From contig JAOTYE010000013.1 in the NCBI GenBank assembly GCA_029862045.1, forward strand, positions 1-64,000: a stretch of 64,000 nt of DNA, in the 5' to 3' direction. A model generated the notes under the pieces. The model saw nothing but the letters and a program-made list of their open reading frames with translations. It made no database searches and was not told the DNA's origin. The position numbers were made by a program, and so were the translations under genes. The DNA is from Gammaproteobacteria bacterium (GTDB lineage: Bacteria > Pseudomonadota > Gammaproteobacteria > Steroidobacterales > Woeseiaceae). Positions 53,138 to 63,264 of this stretch are shown here, piece after piece. The first letter of the stretch is position 1, and each line of letters starts with the position of its first letter.

Positions 53138-53200
53138 GCGCGTCCGTTGACCAATTTGCGTCACTGTGCATAACGATGCACAGCTGATTCACGCAGGATC
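53138..53200. repeat. Conserved hairpin repeat, module f, overlapping the dsrN 3' end
   Basis: GGCGCGTCCGTTGACCAA starts a copy of module f. The hairpin CTGTGCA, six bases, TGCACAG is at 53164-53183, followed by CTGATTCACGCAGG. The copy runs over the last four codons and the stop of dsrN (stop at 53189-53191). No other sequence of interest lies in the 119-base gap between the 51774 gene and dsrN. Confidence 0.7.
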
Positions 53201-54589
53201 CCCGCAGACGTTCTTTGGCTTCCGCCGGACAAACTCCACGAAACGATTGACCCAGGGGTCCGCCTCTGTGTTTCGATGGTGTACAAAACCCGCGAGAAGA
53301 TTTCCAACCAGCAGGCCGTCATTATGACCATCGATACCGTTACCACGTATTACTCGATAAGCGTAATCGGGATCATCGGGCAGGTTCTCCAGGCGAGCAT
53401 AATGAAATTCGTGTGCGGGAATGCCGGCGCCTGAATCGCGGGCGCTACGGGATGCCGCGGGCCACAAACTCTTTTCTGTTTCCTCTAACATCACGTAGCC
53501 CCTGCCCTGCGGGCGATCCTCGACGATGACGTCGCCCGGAGCCGCCCCGACCATGTCGAACTTCTTACTGTCCCACTGGATGCTGCGCGCCAGATACATC
53601 AGACCCCCGCACTCCGCGTACGCGGGCATGCCGGCCGCCAGAGCCTGCCGGATCTCTGTAAGCAAATTTTGATTTGCAGACAACGCCGCCAGGTGAGTCT
53701 CCGGAAAACCACCACCAATAAACAGCCCTTCTGCCTTGGGCAGTTGCAGGTCGCTGAGTGTGTCGAACGGAATAAGTTCGGCCCCGGCCCGGGCAAACGC
53801 CTCAAGGTCATCCTGATAGTAGAATCCGAAAGCGGCATCGCGCGCGATGGCGATACGCACATCGGCAACTGGCCGTATCGGTTCGGCGACCGCCGCCCGT
53901 GGCGTTTCGCCAATGTTGGCAATCTCGATCAGACGATCGACATCGACCCCGGCAGATACTGCATCAGCCAGCAGTGAAATCATCGAGTCTGCCTTCTTGT
54001 CTTCATTGGCCGGGACAAGACCGAGGTGGCGCTCGGGAATCTCCAGCACCTGGTCACGGCCGATCGCCCCGATTACTTCCACATCGGTATAACGCTCCAG
54101 TGCTGCGCGGAGCTTACCCTCATGGCGTGTGCCGCCGACCTTGTTGAGGATCACGCCACGAACATCGACGTCCCGATCGAAGTTCAGGTAACCACTAATC
54201 AGTGCTGCGATGCCCCTCGTCATGCCAGCGGTGTCGATCACCAGCACCACTGGTGCCGATAGCATTTTCACCAGTGCTGCGTTGCTGTCCGCACCTTCGA
54301 CGTCAAGGCCATCGAAGAGTCCTTTGTTGCCCTCGATCAGGCTGATATCGGCCCCGGCCGATCTGCTGGTGAAACTGGCGAGAATCTCCGCATCGGACAT
54401 CGTAAAGAAGTCGAGGTTGTAGCAGGCCCTGCCGGCGGCGCGAGCCAGCCACAGAGGATCGATGTAGTCCGGGCCTTTTTTGAAAGGCTGTACCGCCAGA
54501 CCCCGTCTTAGCATTGCGGCCGCAAGTCCGATCGAAACCGACGTCTTGCCGGAGGACTTATGCGCGGCTGCTATGAAAAAGTGTGCCAA
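53189..54589 (-). CDS. dsrN: DsrN, siroheme amidase (CbiA-like glutamine amidotransferase)
   Basis: 466 residues, close to the known DsrN length. The N-terminal ATPase domain has the P-loop-like AAHKSSGKTSVSIGL and FKKGPDYIDP, followed by SLIEGNKGLFDG. The C-terminal triad-type glutaminase domain has the nucleophile cysteine in PAYAECGGLMYL and ends with FHYARLE and a histidine. In Allochromatium it converts siroheme to siroheme amide for DsrAB. It is the last gene of the dsr operon here. DsrJ precedes it directly, so the usual dsrO and dsrP are absent. The last residues coincide with a conserved repeat, and dsrR and dsrS do not follow. Confidence 0.92.
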   Translation of the reverse strand: MAHFFIAAAHKSSGKTSVSIGLAAAMLRRGLAVQPFKKGPDYIDPLWLARAAGRACYNLDFFTMSDAEILASFTSRSAGADISLIEGNKGLFDGLDVEGADSNAALVKMLSAPVVLVIDTAGMTRGIAALISGYLNFDRDVDVRGVILNKVGGTRHEGKLRAALERYTDVEVIGAIGRDQVLEIPERHLGLVPANEDKKADSMISLLADAVSAGVDVDRLIEIANIGETPRAAVAEPIRPVADVRIAIARDAAFGFYYQDDLEAFARAGAELIPFDTLSDLQLPKAEGLFIGGGFPETHLAALSANQNLLTEIRQALAAGMPAYAECGGLMYLARSIQWDSKKFDMVGAAPGDVIVEDRPQGRGYVMLEETEKSLWPAASRSARDSGAGIPAHEFHYARLENLPDDPDYAYRVIRGNGIDGHNDGLLVGNLLAGFVHHRNTEADPWVNRFVEFVRRKPKNVCGDPA

Positions 54590-54595
54590 TACAGC

Positions 54596-55039
54596 TTACG
54601 TCGGTTCGCGCGGCCGCTTCATTGCCGACCGGCGTGGACGCGATTTATGGCAATCGAAACAATCGATCTTCACCGCAGCGTAATCGTGACACGAGCGGCA
54701 AAAATGTTCCGGGCTGTCCGCGGTCAGCGGCCTCGCATCCGGCCCCATAACCGCATGACAGGCTACGCAATCTTTGATGCTGTGCCCCTCGCTGCGTATA
54801 TCTTTCAAATCGGGTTCGTCATGCTGATGCTTTAGTACCGTCATATGGTTACGGCGCATGAACTCCGTATCGTAAACACAGCTGTCGCCTTGTCCCCTGG
54901 GAATGACAGGCATTGGCACACCTTTAGCCACGCCCTCGTCTTCCGCCGCTTCAAGCACGTCGTTCACGCCGGCCAGAGCAACCACCAATAGAACCAGAAC
55001 AAGTGCGACCGCTGCAATGGAGCTGTGGCGCACGGCCAT
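54596..55039 (-). CDS. dsrJ: DsrJ, periplasmic triheme cytochrome c
   Basis: 147 residues with an uncleaved-type signal anchor (AAVALVLVLLVVALAGV). Three CxxCH heme sites are visible: CVACH, CRSCH and CFDCH, in the second half. Possible distal ligands include C53 (GQGDSCVYD) and nearby histidines and methionines, as in the DsrJ heme with unusual ligation. In the canonical DsrMKJOP complex it works with the periplasmic iron-sulfur protein DsrO and the membrane protein DsrP. Neither is encoded next to it. It follows dsrL by only four bases and precedes dsrN by six. Partner complex therefore uncertain. Confidence 0.9.
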   Translation of the reverse strand: MAVRHSSIAAVALVLVLLVVALAGVNDVLEAAEDEGVAKGVPMPVIPRGQGDSCVYDTEFMRRNHMTVLKHQHDEPDLKDIRSEGHSIKDCVACHAVMGPDARPLTADSPEHFCRSCHDYAAVKIDCFDCHKSRPRRSAMKRPREPT

Positions 55040-55042
55040 GAT

Positions 55043-56971
55043 TTACTCTCCCAACCCCATCCGGATATACCCGGACGGACAGACATCTTCACAAATGTGA
55101 CAACCGATACATTTTGTGTAGTCGGTGTCGACATATTTGCCCATGGTCGATTCCGATTTCTCGACCCGGAAAATAGCGTCCTGCGGACAATAGATGACAC
55201 AGTTATCGCACTCGAAACACATGCCGCAGCTCATACAGCGGTTGGCTTCCTGCCGGGCTTCTTCCTCCGATAGACCTTGTATCCGCTCGCCGAAATAGCC
55301 CAGCACGGAGTCGGCGCCTATTTCACTTTCCTTGCGCAGGCGCCTCGCGTCGTATTTGAAATGGCCGAGAAACAACTGGTCCGACGGTACGATTTCGGCA
55401 AACGAGCGGTCCTCATAATTGTGGACTGCGAAATCGGCTTCGTCCGTTCCCCAATCCTGTACGTGTTCATATTCGCTTGGTGCGTGGTCGATTTCCCGTA
55501 ACTTCTCCAGCAGGCTGAAGTGATGCACATCGACCTTGGGTCGCCGTGACGGGTCGGCACCGGTCACGAACCTGTCAATCCCCTCTGCCGCGATCGAGGC
55601 GTGGCCGATCGCGGTCGTCAGCAGATGCGGCTTTATAATGTCACCACCGACAAACAGATCGGCGTGATCCTTGACACGATAGAATCCGTCGGCATCGATC
55701 AACCCCGAACCATTATCGAGATTCTCCAGGCCGACGAGGTCACCTTGCTGGCCTATCGCCGCGACGATCAGGTCGCACTCGATTTCTATTTCGCTCCCTT
55801 CCTTGACGACCATCTTGCCAGTGCTCCAGTCGGCCTCAATGACACGCAGGGCCCTGGCGCGGCCATCGTCACCGACCACCACCGAAACAGGAGCCAGCGA
55901 GTTGCGGATTTTCACGCCTTCCTGGGTCACATGCTCGATTTCCATCTTAGTGGCCGGCATTTTGTCGAGAGGCCGCCGGTAAACGATAGTCACCTCGGCA
56001 CCCTGGCGCTTGGCGACGGTCGCCACATCGTGCACCGTTTGGCCAAGAATGACGCTTTCCGGCCTGTCGTGTTCACGTTTGTGCTGGATATGCCCCAGGC
56101 GCCTGGCAACTGCGGCAACGTCCATTGCCGTATCGCCACCACCGATGACCAGCACGCGCTGGGCAGAGTGCTTTAAGCGCCCGTCATTGAATGCCTCCAG
56201 AAAGGCGATGCCGCTGATGCAGTTTGGCACGTCCCCGCCCGGCACCGGCAAGGCCGCACCGGACTGGGCGCCAACACCAATGAATACGGCATCGAATTCC
56301 GTCTGCAGGTCCTCTAGTGAAATGTCGACGCCGACTTTCGAATTCTTGCGGACTTCGACGCCGAGATCGAGAATGCGTTGGATTTCGCCATCGAGGACTT
56401 CGCGCGGCACCCGATATCCGGGAATGCCGTAACGCGTCATGCCGCCCAATTCGTCGTGAGCCTCAAAAACCGTGCAGGCATGTCCCTTGCGGCGTAACTG
56501 ATAGGCGCAGGCGAGGCCGGCCACCCCACCGCCGATAATCGCGACCTTCTTCCCGGTATCTTTCCCTGCCGGTCGAAGCTGCAATCGATGTTCGAGAGCA
56601 TAGTCGCCGATGAACTGCTCAACCGAATTAATGCCAACATGATCCTCGACCTCATTTCGGTTGCAACCGTCTTCACACGGCGCCGGGCATACCCTGCCCA
56701 TAATGGCTGGAAACGGGTTGGCATCGGTGACGCGGCTGAACGCGTACTCCTGCCAGGGCATATCTCCTGGAGCCTTTTCTATGCCTCGCGCAATATTCAA
56801 CCAGCCACGGATGTCCTCACCCGAAGGGCAACTCCCCTGGCATGGCGGCGCACGGTGAACGTATGTCGGACACTTGAACGATGCATCGGCCGTGAAAATT
56901 TGTTCCTGCCAGGGTCGATGTGCGTTGTCGCCATCTTTGTAGCGACGTCTGGTGAGAAGTTTCTCGTTCAT
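55043..56971 (-). CDS. dsrL: DsrL, NAD(P)H:acceptor iron-sulfur flavoprotein
   Basis: 642 residues. The N-terminal cysteine-rich region (PPCQGSCPSGEDIRGW, VCPAPCEDGCNR) is a GltD-like [4Fe-4S] domain. Two Rossmann motifs follow: VAIIGGGVAGLACAYQLRRK for FAD, and VLVIGGGDTAMDVAAVARRL for NAD(P). The C-terminal ferredoxin region has two clusters, CMSCGMCFECDNCVIYCP and CIGCHICEDVCPSG. In sulfur oxidisers DsrL receives electrons from DsrAB and reduces NAD(P). It is essential there for sulfur globule oxidation. The gene lies between dsrK and dsrJ as in known operons. Confidence 0.93.
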   Translation of the reverse strand: MNEKLLTRRRYKDGDNAHRPWQEQIFTADASFKCPTYVHRAPPCQGSCPSGEDIRGWLNIARGIEKAPGDMPWQEYAFSRVTDANPFPAIMGRVCPAPCEDGCNRNEVEDHVGINSVEQFIGDYALEHRLQLRPAGKDTGKKVAIIGGGVAGLACAYQLRRKGHACTVFEAHDELGGMTRYGIPGYRVPREVLDGEIQRILDLGVEVRKNSKVGVDISLEDLQTEFDAVFIGVGAQSGAALPVPGGDVPNCISGIAFLEAFNDGRLKHSAQRVLVIGGGDTAMDVAAVARRLGHIQHKREHDRPESVILGQTVHDVATVAKRQGAEVTIVYRRPLDKMPATKMEIEHVTQEGVKIRNSLAPVSVVVGDDGRARALRVIEADWSTGKMVVKEGSEIEIECDLIVAAIGQQGDLVGLENLDNGSGLIDADGFYRVKDHADLFVGGDIIKPHLLTTAIGHASIAAEGIDRFVTGADPSRRPKVDVHHFSLLEKLREIDHAPSEYEHVQDWGTDEADFAVHNYEDRSFAEIVPSDQLFLGHFKYDARRLRKESEIGADSVLGYFGERIQGLSEEEARQEANRCMSCGMCFECDNCVIYCPQDAIFRVEKSESTMGKYVDTDYTKCIGCHICEDVCPSGYIRMGLGE

Positions 56972-57006
56972 ACTCTACTCACTCTTTCGGTTTTTTCGCC
57001 GTCGTA

Positions 57007-58512
57007 CTAGTCGGCATGATCGATCGTCTGGCCGTCAAGCACGATGGCATTCGAAACCAGCTGATGTACGCTGACGACGGCGTCCATATCGAATCCATAG
57101 GTGGGCATGACCTTCCCAAATTGCGACTTGCAGATGGCGCAGATCGCCGCCATGTGCGTGACACCATGTTCTTCTACGACTTCCTGCAGTGCCCGCATGC
57201 GTGGTGCCGCTCCCTTGGTCCTGATTTCCAACAGGTCATCTGTCAGCAGCCCGCCGCCTCCACCGCAGCAAAAGGTCTTTTCGTTGATCGTGTCGGCGGC
57301 CATGTCAACGAAGTTGTTGCAGCAGGCCCTGATGATCGCTCGCGGAATCTCGAACTGCCCGCCGGGCCTGTCACCCATGCGCGAGCCGCGTGCGACATTG
57401 CACGAATCATGATAGGTCAGCGTCATGTGATCGTTGGCAGCCTTGTCCAGCGTCAACTCGCCTTTTTCGATCAGGTCGTAGGTAAATTCACAAATGTGTT
57501 GTGGAATCGGGTAATCGGGATCCAGAAAATCGAACGGCCCGGCCAGTGTGTTGAGGAAGCTGTAGGCGACTCGCCACGCATGCCCGCACTCGCCGAAAAC
57601 AATGCGCTTGACGCCCAGATCCTCGGCCGCTTTCCTGATGCGCTCCGCGACCAGCTTCATTTGCTCGTAAGAGCCAATGAACAGCCCAAAGTTCGCGGCT
57701 TCGGAGGCATATGAACTGACTGTCCAGCTGACTCCCGCCTGATGAAACACCTTGGCGTACCCGATCAGACCATCGACGTGCGGCTCCGCAAAAAAGTCGG
57801 CACTGGGGGTCACGAGCAGGATATCTGCGCCTTCCACATTGACCGGCAACCTTACCTTCACGCCGGTTTCTTCCTCGATGTCCTCTTCCAGGCCTTCCAG
57901 CGTATTGATCAGTGCCGCCTCAGGTAGCCCGAGGTTGTTGCCGATCTGGTGAACCTTGCCAATGATTTCGTTGCAGTATTTCTGACCCTTGCCGATGTGA
58001 TCCATGATCTCGCGTGCGGCCATTGATATTTCGGCGGTGTCGATGCCGTAGGGACAATAAACAGAGCATCGCCGGCACTGTGAACATTGGTGGAAATAGG
58101 TGTACCAGTCATCAAGCAACTCTTCGGTCAGATCCTCGGCGCCGACCAGCCATGGCACGAGTTTGCCAGCCCATGTGAAGTTGCGACGATAGACCTTGCG
58201 CATAAGATCCTGACGCGCGACCGGCATGTTTTTTGGATCACCGCTACCGAGAAAATAATGGCACTTATCGGTGCACGCGCCACACTTCACGCAGCTGTCC
58301 ATGTAAACCTGCAGCGCCCGTGACTTGCCGAGCAATTCGGAAAACTTGTCGATCGCTTTCGTTTGCCAATCGTCGACCAGTTCTCCCGGGAAACCGAGCG
58401 CTTGCTGGTGCGCCGGGGCTGCCGCATACGGCGATAAGTGTTCCATCGCTCCTCTCTTGAGCGTCGGAATCTCGATTGGCACGGTGATCGAAGGTGTGTC
58501 GTAGTCAGCCAT
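57007..58512 (-). CDS. dsrK: DsrK, HdrD-like iron-sulfur subunit of the Dsr membrane complex
   Basis: 501 residues. An N-terminal ferredoxin-like part has CVKCGACTDKCHYFLG and CSQCRRCSVYCPYG. The C-terminal part has the CCG-type catalytic features of heterodisulfide reductases: HDSCNVARG, and CCGGGGGLL near residue 430, with CAICKSQ following. It is cytoplasmic and binds the DsrM membrane subunit. It is thought to reduce or oxidise the DsrC trisulfide/disulfide and pass electrons to the quinone pool. It starts three bases after the dsrM stop. The repertoire is as expected for DsrMK. Confidence 0.93.
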   Translation of the reverse strand: MADYDTPSITVPIEIPTLKRGAMEHLSPYAAAPAHQQALGFPGELVDDWQTKAIDKFSELLGKSRALQVYMDSCVKCGACTDKCHYFLGSGDPKNMPVARQDLMRKVYRRNFTWAGKLVPWLVGAEDLTEELLDDWYTYFHQCSQCRRCSVYCPYGIDTAEISMAAREIMDHIGKGQKYCNEIIGKVHQIGNNLGLPEAALINTLEGLEEDIEEETGVKVRLPVNVEGADILLVTPSADFFAEPHVDGLIGYAKVFHQAGVSWTVSSYASEAANFGLFIGSYEQMKLVAERIRKAAEDLGVKRIVFGECGHAWRVAYSFLNTLAGPFDFLDPDYPIPQHICEFTYDLIEKGELTLDKAANDHMTLTYHDSCNVARGSRMGDRPGGQFEIPRAIIRACCNNFVDMAADTINEKTFCCGGGGGLLTDDLLEIRTKGAAPRMRALQEVVEEHGVTHMAAICAICKSQFGKVMPTYGFDMDAVVSVHQLVSNAIVLDGQTIDHAD

Positions 58513-58515
58513 CGG

Positions 58516-59265
58516 CTATTCGCCTCCAGCCTTTTGCCGACCGGCGTCCAATGCTGCGGCCCACGGCGCAAGGTGTCTTTTCTCGCGGGGGTTATCAGCC
58601 TGGTTGCGGCCGGGACTAAAAAACACGCCGGGGGCATGAAGCAACTTCGAAAACGGGAAGATGATCATTAATGCCAACACCAATCCCAGGTGGATCAGCA
58701 ACACCGGGTCGGCGGGAATCGGTTGCCAGTCGAAATAGATCAGGCCCAGGACAAATACCTTTAATGAAATGATGTCCGTGTGCACCACGTACTTCATCAT
58801 CAACCCGGTTGCGACGATCCCGATCAGCAGCAGCAACATGAGATGGTCGGATGGTCCGGAAATATAACGTATGCGTTCGACCGCGAAACGCCGCACCCAG
58901 AGTGCGGCCAGCCCGGCAAGCATCGCGAACCCGGCATACAGCCCATAAGGCTGGACCCACGTCACCCAAAACCAGACCGGCTCGGTGAAATAGCGCAGAT
59001 GACGCAGCACCACCAGCAACAATGCAGCGTGGAACATCCAGCCGAACAGCCAGGTCCATTTGTTGGCCTTGAACAGACTCTCGAAGAAGACGACCTCCTT
59101 CGCCATGCGCATGACCACGCCCGATCGTGTCACGGGGGCCGGCGTCGTCGGGATTTTCAATGGGGCAGGCGTTCTGGCATAGAGCCGGATTCTGTACAGC
59201 AGGCCAATAACGAGAACCGCCGTAGCGAAGTAAGCCAGTACTGCATAGATGGTGCCAAGTACCAA
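58516..59265 (-). CDS. dsrM: DsrM, NarI-like heme b membrane subunit
   Basis: 249 residues with five hydrophobic segments and no signal peptide. The start is TTG; no ATG in this frame suits the length. Candidate heme b ligands are histidines in the second and last helices (GWMFHAALLLVVLRHLRYF, VLLIHLGLVLALMIIFPF, then KLLHAPG). The family links cytoplasmic DsrK to quinone in the inner membrane. It begins 15 bases after dsrC and ends three bases before dsrK, within a tightly packed operon. With DsrK alone it can form the minimal complex, which matters because dsrO and dsrP are missing. Confidence 0.9.
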   Translation of the reverse strand: MVLGTIYAVLAYFATAVLVIGLLYRIRLYARTPAPLKIPTTPAPVTRSGVVMRMAKEVVFFESLFKANKWTWLFGWMFHAALLLVVLRHLRYFTEPVWFWVTWVQPYGLYAGFAMLAGLAALWVRRFAVERIRYISGPSDHLMLLLLIGIVATGLMMKYVVHTDIISLKVFVLGLIYFDWQPIPADPVLLIHLGLVLALMIIFPFSKLLHAPGVFFSPGRNQADNPREKRHLAPWAAALDAGRQKAGGE

Positions 59266-59280
59266 GTTCTTAACCTGTCA

Positions 59281-59613
59281 TTAAATGCAACCCGTCGGTT
59301 TAGGCAAACCGGCAATTTTGCAGGCCTGCTTGGCCGGTCCATAAGGAAACAACTCATAGAGATATTTGCTGTTCCCCTTATCCGCCCCCAGTGATTTTTT
59401 GATCGCCTTGGTCAAAACCCGGACTGCCGGGGCGATCTGGTATTCCTCATAGTAATTCCGCAGGAAGTTCACAACCTCCCAGTGGTCATCGCCCATCTCG
59501 ATATCTTCTTCTGTTGCAATCTGGATCGCTAATTCCTGGCTCCAAAGGCTGATATCAGTGATATAGCCTTCCTCGTCAGTTTCGATAGTTGCACCGTCGC
59601 ATTCATAAGCCAT
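59281..59613 (-). CDS. dsrC: DsrC, sulfur carrier/substrate protein
   Basis: 110 residues, typical length. The mobile C-terminal arm has both functional cysteines: C98 in KQACKIAG and C109 in PTGCI, separated by ten residues as in all functional DsrC proteins. The body (HWEVVNFLRNYYEEYQIAPA) is the family core. It carries a sulfur atom or trisulfide between DsrEFH, DsrAB and DsrMK. The gene sits between dsrH and dsrM, as in known sulfur oxidisers. Confidence 0.95.
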   Translation of the reverse strand: MAYECDGATIETDEEGYITDISLWSQELAIQIATEEDIEMGDDHWEVVNFLRNYYEEYQIAPAVRVLTKAIKKSLGADKGNSKYLYELFPYGPAKQACKIAGLPKPTGCI

Positions 59614-59686
59614 GGCTTACCTCTTACTCGTATTTGAATCCAAATCGATCACCTGGATCACGTGACACCATCGTCAGTCATTGAGC

Positions 59687-59998
59687 TCATAGCCATGACT
59701 GCGTGGCATCATGTTCCGCTACCATGTCGACGAATCCTTCATAGTCGACAACATCAATGCCCTCGATCAAAGGCGCGTCACTCAAGCCCCGTGCCGCAAC
59801 ATCAGGACCAAGAACATAAAAAGAAAAATCGCCCATCCGATCGATAATTTTTTCAGCGTGGGCGGCTTTCGCCAGCGCCGCATACACGCCGTCTTCGATC
59901 AGCAGGATCGAGCTTCCGGACTTTGCCAGGCGAAGGCAGCTATCCAGCGCATTTCTCTCGAACGGTGACTTGTTGATCAAATGCAGCATCGGACTCAA
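59687..59998 (-). CDS. dsrH: DsrH, sulfurtransferase subunit
   Basis: 103 residues of the TusB/DsrH family (LHLINKSPFERNALDSCLRLA, SILLIEDGVYAA). C21 matches the conserved cysteine near position 20. The start overlaps the dsrF stop by ATGA, so expression is coupled. With DsrE and DsrF it forms an E2F2H2 hexamer that hands sulfur to DsrC. Length slightly above TusB, normal for DsrH. Confidence 0.93.
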   Translation of the reverse strand: MSPMLHLINKSPFERNALDSCLRLAKSGSSILLIEDGVYAALAKAAHAEKIIDRMGDFSFYVLGPDVAARGLSDAPLIEGIDVVDYEGFVDMVAEHDATQSWL

Positions 59999-60393
59999 GA
60001 ACTGATTACAACGTCTTGTTGCGCCATGACGTCACGCAAATCATCTGCGGCCAGGACCTCGACGGGGATCACCAGGTCGTCAGCCGTCAGACCGCGCGCA
60101 GCGAGCGATTCTTTTTCGACATAGATTTTCTCAACATCGTAATCATCAAGCGCCCCGTAGGTCTTCGAAAAATTCTTCATGCCGATGCCTGTCGTGTCCT
60201 GGTTTTTCTTCAACTGGCATACACCATCGTCCAGGAACACTACGCTGACGTCCTGATCGAATGCCGCGGCAACCAGAACGACTTCGAGACATTCGAGTGC
60301 GTAAATCGTGCCGTATGGCGCTCTGCGGTTGACGTACATGAATCGTTTGACAACCGTGAGGGCGTTCTCGTCGAGTTCATTCATTTCGCTCAT
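59995..60393 (-). CDS. dsrF: DsrF, sulfurtransferase subunit
   Basis: 132 residues of the TusC/DsrF group. The N-terminal part KRFMYVNRRAPYGTIYALECLEVVL and the central SVVFLDDGVCQLKKNQDTT are characteristic. DsrF carries no essential catalytic cysteine in known hexamers, although C35 and C59 are present here. It starts about six bases after the dsrE stop and overlaps dsrH by four bases. Structural subunit of the DsrEFH complex. Confidence 0.93.
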   Translation of the reverse strand: MSEMNELDENALTVVKRFMYVNRRAPYGTIYALECLEVVLVAAAFDQDVSVVFLDDGVCQLKKNQDTTGIGMKNFSKTYGALDDYDVEKIYVEKESLAARGLTADDLVIPVEVLAADDLRDVMAQQDVVISS

Positions 60394-60399
60394 ACCGTT

Positions 60400-60759
60400 T
60401 CAGTCGCCGAACACGATGAGCCGGTCAGCCTGAATGCCCGCTTCAACGAGTTGACCAAGCCCGGAAATCCGAAACCCGTCTTCAAGAACCTCATCCTTGA
60501 TGCCACGACGCAGCGCGGCGGCAACGCACACCACCAGATCGATGTCGTGTTCCTTGCCCAACTTCGCCCACAAGGAAACCAGGTTACGATCATCGGTCTG
60601 AGGCTCTGACAGCTTGTTGGAGTTGTACACTCCATCGTTGTAGAAGAACACGCGATAGATTTCATGCCCCTTGGCGAGCGCGGCCGCGGTAAAGCGATAT
60701 GCACTATCCGAGGCCTGGTGCGTAAACGGGCCTTCGTTAATCAGGATTCCGAACTTCAT
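60400..60759 (-). CDS. dsrE: DsrE, sulfur-binding sulfurtransferase subunit
   Basis: 119 residues. The essential cysteine is at position 78 in DLVVCVAAALRRG, exactly where it sits in Allochromatium DsrE. The family core is complete (GHEIYRVFFYNDGVYNSN). The start shares one base with the dsrB stop, so the genes are coupled. It is slightly shorter than the about 130 residues of well-studied DsrE because the C-terminus ends early at FGD. Part of the DsrEFH hexamer. Confidence 0.93.
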   Translation of the reverse strand: MKFGILINEGPFTHQASDSAYRFTAAALAKGHEIYRVFFYNDGVYNSNKLSEPQTDDRNLVSLWAKLGKEHDIDLVVCVAAALRRGIKDEVLEDGFRISGLGQLVEAGIQADRLIVFGD

Positions 60760-61838
60760 TAGAAATGCATATGGGTCGATGCGTTCAGGCTACTGCGCGC
60801 ACCGCGCCAATCGTCAATGTGGTGCCTGGTGAAGGCCAGCCCGGTCATCTCGAAAAAGCGCGGCCAGCCGATTCGATCAATCCACTCACCCACGCGCTCC
60901 CAGGCGTGCGCATCCTCCTTGTAAGCATAAAGAATCGTCTTAACGATCTCTGCCACTTCGGGCCAACGCGGCGGGTTGTTCGGCAGTCCTGCGGCAACCA
61001 GCTTGTGAAAGGTCGGCTTCGAGCGCGCATTGGAATGTTTACCACCGACCCAGATCGCCAGCTTGGTTGAATCCGGCCCGTTAATCTGCATCGGCGGGCA
61101 GGGTGGGTAACATGCACCGCAGCAAATGCATTTTTTCTCGTCGACCTCGAGGGACGGCTTGCCATTGACCATCGCCGGGCGGATCGCCGCCACCGGGCAG
61201 CGTGCCACGACCGCCGGGCGCTCGCAGACATTGGCAACAAGATCGTGGTTGATCTTGGGTGGTTTCGTGTACTGCACGTTGATTGCAATATCGCCCTGGC
61301 CACCGCAATTGATCTGGCAGCACGAGGTTGTGATGCGTACCCGGTTTGGCATTTCTTCGTGCGTGAATTCGTGGTGCAATTCATCCATCAACGCTTTGAC
61401 GACACCAGATGCATCAGTGCCGGGGATGTCACAGTGCAGCCACCCCTGGGTATGGGAAATCATCGATATTGAGTTACCGGTGCCTCCGACCGGATAGCCC
61501 GCCCCGTTCAGTCGTTCGATTAGTGGTCCCGTCTTGTCCTGGGAAGTCACCATGAACTCTGCATTGCTGCGGGTTGTAAAGCGCAAGTGGCCATCGGCGA
61601 ATTCATCCGCAATGTCACACAGTTCGCGGATCGTATGCACATCCATCTGGCGCTGTGTCCCGGCACGCACGGTCCATACTTCATCACCGCTCTTGGCGAC
61701 ATGGTGCAAGACACCCGGGCGTAGCCGATCGTGCCAGCTCCATTGCCCATAGTTTTTCTTCAGCAGCGGGTGCATTTGCGGGAACGGATCCATGACCCCG
61801 GATTCGTCCGCTCTACGAGGTTTTTCCGCCCCTTTCAT
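60759..61838 (-). CDS. dsrB: DsrB, reverse dissimilatory sulfite reductase beta subunit
   Basis: 359 residues, as expected, from an ATG with GGAG upstream. The siroheme/[4Fe-4S] part includes SNAEFMVTSQ, ISMISHTQGWLHCDIPGTD and ITTSCCQINCGG. The ferredoxin domain has CICCGACYPPCPPM and CPVAAI. The context with dsrEFH and dsrL indicates the oxidative (reverse) type. With DsrA it forms the alpha2beta2 enzyme oxidising DsrC-bound sulfur to sulfite in the cytoplasm. It starts 72 bases after the dsrA stop. Confidence 0.96.
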   Translation of the reverse strand: MKGAEKPRRADESGVMDPFPQMHPLLKKNYGQWSWHDRLRPGVLHHVAKSGDEVWTVRAGTQRQMDVHTIRELCDIADEFADGHLRFTTRSNAEFMVTSQDKTGPLIERLNGAGYPVGGTGNSISMISHTQGWLHCDIPGTDASGVVKALMDELHHEFTHEEMPNRVRITTSCCQINCGGQGDIAINVQYTKPPKINHDLVANVCERPAVVARCPVAAIRPAMVNGKPSLEVDEKKCICCGACYPPCPPMQINGPDSTKLAIWVGGKHSNARSKPTFHKLVAAGLPNNPPRWPEVAEIVKTILYAYKEDAHAWERVGEWIDRIGWPRFFEMTGLAFTRHHIDDWRGARSSLNASTHMHF

Positions 61839-61910
61839 CGATCGCTCCTCATGTTCGCTTCTCTCTGCCGATTGTGTATTTGCATACCTTGCTACAGATA
61901 CCCCGATGGC

Positions 61911-63161
61911 CTACTCGACCGCAGCGCTTTTCCGTTCAAACCATTTTTGCGCTTCCTCGTCCCAGTCGTCGGTTCGCACATATGAACTGGTGCGCGGATG
62001 ACTGACCATGTTGGGATCAACATCGACACCGATCCCTGCAAGGAAATTGGCAAGACCGATGCGATCGATGGTTTCACCGATACGCTCGTGTTCGAGCGCA
62101 TTCTCGGCAAAGAAATCGATAACCGTTTCCGCCAGTTCATAAAACCGGTCGAAATCCTCGTCGGTCTCAAGCGGCATGAACGGAATGATGACTGTGCCCA
62201 TCTGGTCACCGATTTTCAGTGCGCGCTTGCCGCCAATCAGGATGGTGGCACCGCGCTCCTTGCCAGGTGACAACGCTTTGGTCATGACGTTGATGCAATG
62301 CATGCAGCGCACGCAGCTGCTGTTGTCGATATCCAGGGTGTCGTCGTCGTTCAGGCTGAGCGCGCGTGTCGGGCAGTTAGCGACCACCGTATCGATCATC
62401 TGCTTGCGGCCTACCCTGGCCACGTGTTCTTTGACCTTCTCCTGGTCGGCCTGGATATTATCGCGCCAGATGCCTATGACCGCGAAATCCGCACGATGGA
62501 TGGCGTTTACGCAGTCGTTCGGGCAGCCAGAGAACTTGAATTTGAACTTGTACGGCAATGCCGGGCGGTGCATTTCGTCGAGCAGGCCGTTAATGATCAT
62601 TCGATGCGCACGCACCTCGTCATAACACGACTGCTCACAGCGGGCATGGCCGACGCAGCTCATGGCCGTCCTCAAAGCAGGCCCGGCGCCACCCATGTCC
62701 ATGCCGATTTTATTCAGATCATCGAATGCCTTTTGCACATTATCGGTGCTGCACCCCTGGAACATGATGTCCCCGGACTGGCCGTGGAGTGCAATCAGGC
62801 CTGAGCCGTGTTTCTCCCAGATGTCGCACATATTGCGCAACAGCTCAGTTGAATAATGCAATCCGGCCGGGGGTTGCACACGCAGCGTGTGAAACTCTGA
62901 CGAGTCGGGATAGTCCTCGGCGACCTCGGAGAACCTCGGGATAACGCCGCCACCATAGCCAAAGACGCTGACGGTGCCGCCTTTCCAGTAGCCCATGCGG
63001 GTTTCGTAGGAGTGCTCGAGCTGACCCAGAAGGTCTTTCATCATATTGGCGTACGGCTTGTCATTGTCGCTCGCCAATTGTTTGAGGCCTGAAACGAAAC
63101 TCGGCCAGGGCCCGTGTTCGAGTTCATCCAGCAACGGTGTGTCGTGCGGTCTCTTCGACAT
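61911..63161 (-). CDS. dsrA: DsrA, reverse dissimilatory sulfite reductase alpha subunit
   Basis: 416 residues from the ATG at 63161, chosen because the upstream 16 codons are not family-like and the length then equals known DsrA. Siroheme-[4Fe-4S] ligand cysteines lie in AMSCVGHARCEQSCYDE and FSGCPNDCVNAI. The ferredoxin cluster is in SSCVRCMHCINVMTKAL with the preceding CPTRALSL. First gene of the operon dsrABEFHCMKLJN. The promoter probably lies in the 200-base divergent gap towards the dioxygenase gene, which has a long AT-rich palindrome. Confidence 0.96.
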   Translation of the reverse strand: MSKRPHDTPLLDELEHGPWPSFVSGLKQLASDNDKPYANMMKDLLGQLEHSYETRMGYWKGGTVSVFGYGGGVIPRFSEVAEDYPDSSEFHTLRVQPPAGLHYSTELLRNMCDIWEKHGSGLIALHGQSGDIMFQGCSTDNVQKAFDDLNKIGMDMGGAGPALRTAMSCVGHARCEQSCYDEVRAHRMIINGLLDEMHRPALPYKFKFKFSGCPNDCVNAIHRADFAVIGIWRDNIQADQEKVKEHVARVGRKQMIDTVVANCPTRALSLNDDDTLDIDNSSCVRCMHCINVMTKALSPGKERGATILIGGKRALKIGDQMGTVIIPFMPLETDEDFDRFYELAETVIDFFAENALEHERIGETIDRIGLANFLAGIGVDVDPNMVSHPRTSSYVRTDDWDEEAQKWFERKSAAVE

Positions 63162-63264
63162 AGAAATCCCCGGCTGTCGTGCGTTGCAGCATTGTACCGA
63201 CCGGTGCAATTCTCAAGTAATTGCAGAAAACACCTAGTTGGCACCTCGAAACTTCCTGTGTGAG

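Follow-up and report, generated by a model that had tools for sequence, protein, structure and literature searches.

A dsr operon that keeps dsrJ without dsrO and dsrP points to an inherited loss in a small group of marine-sediment bacteria

How can a sulfur-oxidation operon do without dsrO and dsrP while its triheme cytochrome gene, dsrJ, stays in place? The question is raised by a dsr operon in the window, by which we mean the whole 64,000-nucleotide stretch of DNA analysed here, which is part of contig C33 of a genome (G000) that comprises 36 contigs and is listed as 100% complete. To our knowledge, the individual roles of DsrJ, DsrO and DsrP are unsettled. We therefore describe the operon, its counterparts in relatives with and without dsrOP (the latter hereafter OP-less), and the readings that might account for it.

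Gene content of the dsr operon

On the minus strand, from 63209 to 53189, the open reading frame list and profile matches give the gene order dsrA-B-E-F-H-C-M-K-L-J-N. The first three genes, dsrA (61911–63209), dsrB (60759–61838) and dsrE (60400–60759), were placed as open reading frames and are kept in all dsr loci compared. They are followed by dsrF (59995–60393; TIGR03010, 133 bits), dsrH (59687–59998; TIGR03011, 104 bits), dsrC (59281–59613; TIGR03342, 162 bits), dsrM (58516–59265; NF038037, 174 bits, under the cut-off but adjoining dsrK), dsrK (57007–58512; NF045796, 594 bits, above the cut-off) and dsrL (55043–56971; NF009410, 709 bits), the last being 90% identical to dsrL of other OP-less genomes. 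Placed after dsrL, as in relatives, dsrJ (54596–55039) encodes a membrane-anchored triheme cytochrome of 147 amino acids that carries three CXXCH motifs and matches NF038038 at 52 bits, under the model cut-off of 100. The final gene, dsrN (53189–54589), has a TTG start at 54589 and encodes a member of the cobyrinic acid a,c-diamide synthase family (TIGR00379, 423 bits). The window thus holds dsrAB, dsrEFH, dsrC, dsrMK and dsrL in one cluster, the make-up of an oxidative-type rDsr operon, and the presence of dsrL and dsrEFH suggests that the pathway operates oxidatively.

The J-N junction and its spread among relatives

Six bases (54590–54595, minus strand) separate the dsrJ stop from the TTG start of dsrN at the site of dsrO and dsrP in relatives. 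No dsrOP remnant lies between the two genes and the junction is clean: dsrJ stops shortly beyond its third haem motif, and dsrN follows. The preliminary description of this DNA had reported exactly this, dsrJ retained with dsrO and dsrP missing at the junction, and the observation holds here and in four further genomes. Its remark that dsrR and dsrS are missing downstream is true but not diagnostic, since dsrN followed by unrelated genes was also seen in the two dsrOP-keeping sister genomes checked.

Our dsrL search covered the order first and then 107 genomes of the family, few of which have dsrL. The direct J-N junction recurs in four more members of the genus (G230, G206, G274 and G275), and the OP-less genomes together make up a small group of bacteria from marine sediment. 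Separate projects produced two of these genomes, the named MAGs 13_May_SF_Bin65 (L048) and ES_Gamma_084 (Woeseiaceae, L056). Three further genomes (G210, G269 and G113) and six from another family in the order have ~2 kb or more between J and N, holding dsrO and dsrP, and in G256 dsrP and the end of dsrO are found at the start of another contig. Among the named loci with both genes on one contig, dsrOP lies between J and N in 44 of 46, the two exceptions being L048 and L056 of the OP-less clade. Both genes were found in every other sulfur-oxidising relative examined. Nine Dsr proteins, concatenated, give a tree in which the OP-less loci, four of which were included, form one clade with support of 100/100; a tree of J, covering all five OP-less genomes, also recovers one clade (99/99).

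Judged from these sequence comparisons, the absence of dsrOP is an inherited loss in the ancestor of the clade and not an assembly collapse, and neither chance nor a misjoin would account for it, because the same J-N junction recurs in G230, G206, G274 and G275. Comparing the junction across related genomes also disposes of the collapse caveat attached to the preliminary description, the same junction being present in five assemblies. That collapse or misbinning conceals dsrOP is extremely improbable: every genome involved is a draft assembly, but the same junction recurs in five, two of which derive from separate, named projects, and oxidative-type dsrP was not found by profile search in any of the five.

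Separately, in a relative (G066, L019 11743–12780) dsrJ and dsrO are separated by a transposase-like open reading frame, so the J-O junction can be broken up in relatives.

Search for dsrO and dsrP elsewhere in the genome

A relocated dsrOP had been another suggestion. With oxidative-type search profiles made from DsrP and DsrO of the sister lineages themselves, we found in the window's genome a best DsrP match of 44 bits, compared with 697–838 bits in genomes keeping dsrOP, and a best DsrO match of 143 bits, compared with 467–509 bits for full-length DsrO in dsr operons. Relocation of the oxidative type is thereby excluded within this assembly, dsrO and dsrP being missing both at the J-N junction and, by profile, across the window's genome. 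A pair of genes on contig C15, first suggested as the relocated dsrOP by matches to NF045797 and NF045798, was rejected as a paralogue, because NF045798 acts as a model of the reductive type (with it, genuine dsrP from relatives' dsr operons reaches just 57–66 bits) and the oxidative profile gives the C15 protein 44 bits. A PF14589 search returned no match, the model being uninformative, and solved structures provided no useful match for DsrJ or oxidative DsrP.

In a genome of the order (G134), a second dsrOP pair (C36, 127380–129331; 763 and 476 bits) is located away from the dsr operon contig, with one stop codon reported inside the dsrP match.

An aprBA-qmoABC cluster beside dsr

Contig C33 also carries, upstream of dsrA and beyond the window, aprB, aprA, qmoA, qmoB and qmoC in one cluster (~66.6–73.7 kb; L128 2593–9721). 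Both aprA (943 bits) and qmoC (382 bits) score above their cut-offs and enclose two HdrA-like proteins, while aprB was assigned by its position and 40% identity to the other AprB of the genome. The aprBA-qmo genes are present in all five OP-less genomes, with QmoC above the cut-off in G000, G275, G206 and G274 and aprBA-qmoA cut by a contig end in G230; QmoC above the cut-off was found in no OP-bearing relative tested (family and order; 43 named OP-bearing or unresolved genomes). In G210, a sister genome, an aprM-like gene and aprBA fill the slot that follows cysG and its neighbour. Besides aprBA-qmoABC, the window's genome has a separate cluster on contig C12 that combines an aprM-like gene, aprBA and a sat-like gene. 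In sulfur oxidisers AprM and QmoABC, which are regarded as analogous acceptors for APS reductase, are seldom found together (PMC8269255). Chlorobi carry both QmoABC and DsrMKJOP (PMC10504309).

The locus most likely encodes a DsrMKJ complex of reduced make-up, set in a sulfur-oxidation island with remodelled quinone modules. The best explanation overall, to which we give slightly better than even chances, is an ancestral deletion of dsrOP, with DsrMKJ working without OP and the loss tolerated via a rebuilt neighbouring step. A deletion in the clade ancestor, running from just after the third dsrJ haem motif to the dsrN start, would have removed dsrO and dsrP; the remaining rDsr pathway is kept under purifying selection, with dN/dS of J, K, L and N below 1. 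The membrane complex would now be DsrMKJ, in which DsrK would oxidise DsrC thiols and DsrM, as in organisms that have DsrMK only, would hand electrons to the quinone pool; DsrMK without JOP does occur naturally (PMC10504309). DsrJ would stay periplasmic and swap electrons with DsrM or soluble cytochromes, not via DsrO to DsrP; that J can persist alone is supported by the parallel of cable bacteria, whose divergent dsrJ also stays without OP in the operon (PMC13047784). The loss of DsrOP quinone coupling may have been tolerated because the neighbouring step was rebuilt, with a second APS reductase and its quinone-linked QmoABC standing beside dsr in the slot of G210's aprM-aprBA. The position of aprBA-qmoABC also suggests where quinone coupling may have moved. 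Several points count against this explanation: DsrJ may be in the course of being lost, given a dN/dS above that of the other operon genes; in Allochromatium vinosum every part of DsrMKJOP, DsrJ included, is reportedly essential for oxidising stored sulfur; and the gain of Qmo shares its branch with the loss of OP, while Chlorobi combine QmoABC with the full DsrMKJOP.

A further reading is that DsrOP was traded for the QmoABC-linked APS reductase, leaving a working DsrMKJ whose cytochrome was adapted to a new partner in the periplasm or the membrane. If true, DsrOP would be a replaceable energy-coupling module and not core sulfur chemistry. Gain of Qmo and loss of OP amount to one coincidence, because both map to the same branch; the link we draw between them rests on that branch, and we hold such a trade to be possible but doubtful.

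The distal dsrOhPh-tetrahaem locus

The rejected C15 pair merits a description of its own (L004 7248–10012). It sits behind a tetrahaem cytochrome with four CXXCH motifs, has a twin-arginine motif, and matches NF045797 at 194 bits and NF045798 at 404–405 bits, as against the 44 bits obtained with the oxidative-type profile. By this make-up, a Tat-signal ferredoxin and an NrfD-like protein beside a tetrahaem cytochrome and away from dsr, it matches the dsrOhPh-tetrahaem locus already known from cable bacteria and from several Gamma- and Betaproteobacteria (PMC13047784), and its Ph is of the reductive type, distinct from canonical oxidative DsrP. The locus occurs in five genomes of the family, two of them OP-less (G000 and G230) and three with no dsrL match (G117, G175 and G267). 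G275 and G206 cannot be scored, as their syntenic contigs end in that region.

Could this pair, with its tetrahaem cytochrome, replace dsrOP and couple DsrMKJ to the quinone pool? Among dsr-bearing family members the locus is present in two OP-less genomes and in no OP-bearing one, and cable bacteria likewise combine dsrTMKJ without OP with a distal OhPh-tetrahaem locus (PMC13047784). Yet its occurrence in three family members with no dsrL match implies that its function is independent of Dsr; it is of the reductive type and has a tetrahaem cytochrome of its own; it was not found in the OP-less genome G274 (73% complete); and the authors of the cable bacteria study themselves doubt that OhPh joins DsrMKJ (PMC13047784). 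We consider such a replacement unlikely. As for the different partner of DsrJ suggested in the preliminary description, this distal complex and QmoABC are both candidates.

The surrounding region of C15 (L004 5533–10012 and L005 13162–19949) combines the dsrOhPh-tetrahaem locus with diheme c-type cytochromes and large multihaem proteins, and a fumarate-reductase-like pair and a [NiFe] hydrogenase with TmcBC-like subunits lie nearby, making it an island of periplasmic electron transfer.

DsrJ and selection on the remaining operon

The haem motifs of OP-less DsrJ are intact, with all six CXXCH cysteines and their three histidines in place, and Cys54, His65 and Met66 are also kept. At near-invariant non-haem sites, 3 of 16 are changed, as opposed to 2 of 130 for eight control clades taken together (Fisher p = 0.0096, in a test picked once the data had been seen). 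Arg73, Gly80 and Ser87 are each 100% conserved in 57 J sequences from other loci; the first is His in all five OP-less proteins, and the other two are altered in some of the five. By the same comparison, changes at near-invariant sites of DsrM, DsrK, DsrC, DsrA and DsrB are not above those of control clades, and DsrL is borderline (p 0.06). The proposal of a remodelled DsrMKJ complex, one of the options in the preliminary description, gains support from these changed sites beside intact haem motifs. Arg73, Gly80 and Ser87 may be residues that touch O or P, and DsrJ appears to have been re-fitted or loosened at sites where O or P may have been met.

All five OP-less dsrJ reading frames are intact. 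Over two pairs, the dN/dS of DsrJ is 0.37 (95% 0.26–0.56), below 1 but above the values for K (0.08), L (0.12) and N (0.19). As dsrJ is fast-evolving in OP-bearing relatives too, relaxed selection on J was rejected as the sole story; dS is saturated in OP-bearing pairs, so no proof was drawn from raw between-clade contrasts in dN/dS. The elevated dN/dS relative to K, L and N and the changes at Arg73, Gly80 and Ser87 are what would be expected if DsrJ were a decaying relic, with OP gone and only DsrMK still mattering. We regard this as improbable, since dN/dS is clearly below 1 with five frames intact, every haem motif is kept together with Cys54, His65 and Met66, and the rapid evolution of J is shared with OP-bearing relatives. 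On the sequence data, DsrJ is kept and probably functional.

Comparison with known systems

The operon resembles the Allochromatium vinosum-type rDsr operon with DsrMKJOP in its order A-B-E-F-H-C-M-K-L-J and N and in the presence of DsrL, DsrEFH and DsrC. It departs from that type in having no dsrO or dsrP between J and N, with none found elsewhere by profile, and in a DsrJ altered at near-invariant non-haem sites. Cable bacteria (PMC13047784) share with the window's clade a dsrJ kept without dsrOP in the operon, a distal OhPh-tetrahaem locus and a divergent DsrJ; their Dsr is of the reductive type, whereas that of the window is of the oxidative type with DsrL and DsrEFH, and in the window's family the OhPh locus is also found in three members without a dsrL match. 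Archaeal and some bacterial sulfite or sulfate reducers with DsrMK only (PMC10504309) are alike in that DsrMK works without OP, but they belong to another clade and also lack dsrJ, whereas the window's clade keeps J and lost OP secondarily. Finally, the aprBA-qmoABC cluster resembles, by gene content, SOB Apr lineage II with QmoABC (PMC2211403) as the presumed quinone link of APS reductase, with the difference that both Apr types occur together in the window's genome, the Qmo type beside an OP-less dsr operon.

With O and P alone lost by natural descent, and with J, M, K and the rest still under selection, the DsrMK and OP modules are set apart from each other in an oxidiser. The clade thus offers a natural test of DsrO and DsrP function and makes the role of OP testable.

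Operon history

Single-gene trees of the operon conflict with one another. OP-less A and L group with L049/L050, while K and M are nearer L051/L054/L014, and in its single-gene tree dsrN of the OP-less clade groups with genomes of the same genus. Recombination inside the operon (53189–63209) appears likely from these trees, and it may have produced the J-N fusion.

Two features of dsrL were seen in other genomes. Many gammaproteobacterial contigs from named MAGs (L064–L080) carry a DsrL homologue ~65% identical to that of the window. The profiles used picked up no further dsr gene on these contigs, for some of them over 10 kb to either side of the homologue. In four loci (L061, L062, L102 and L103) dsrL is tandemly duplicated within the dsr operon.
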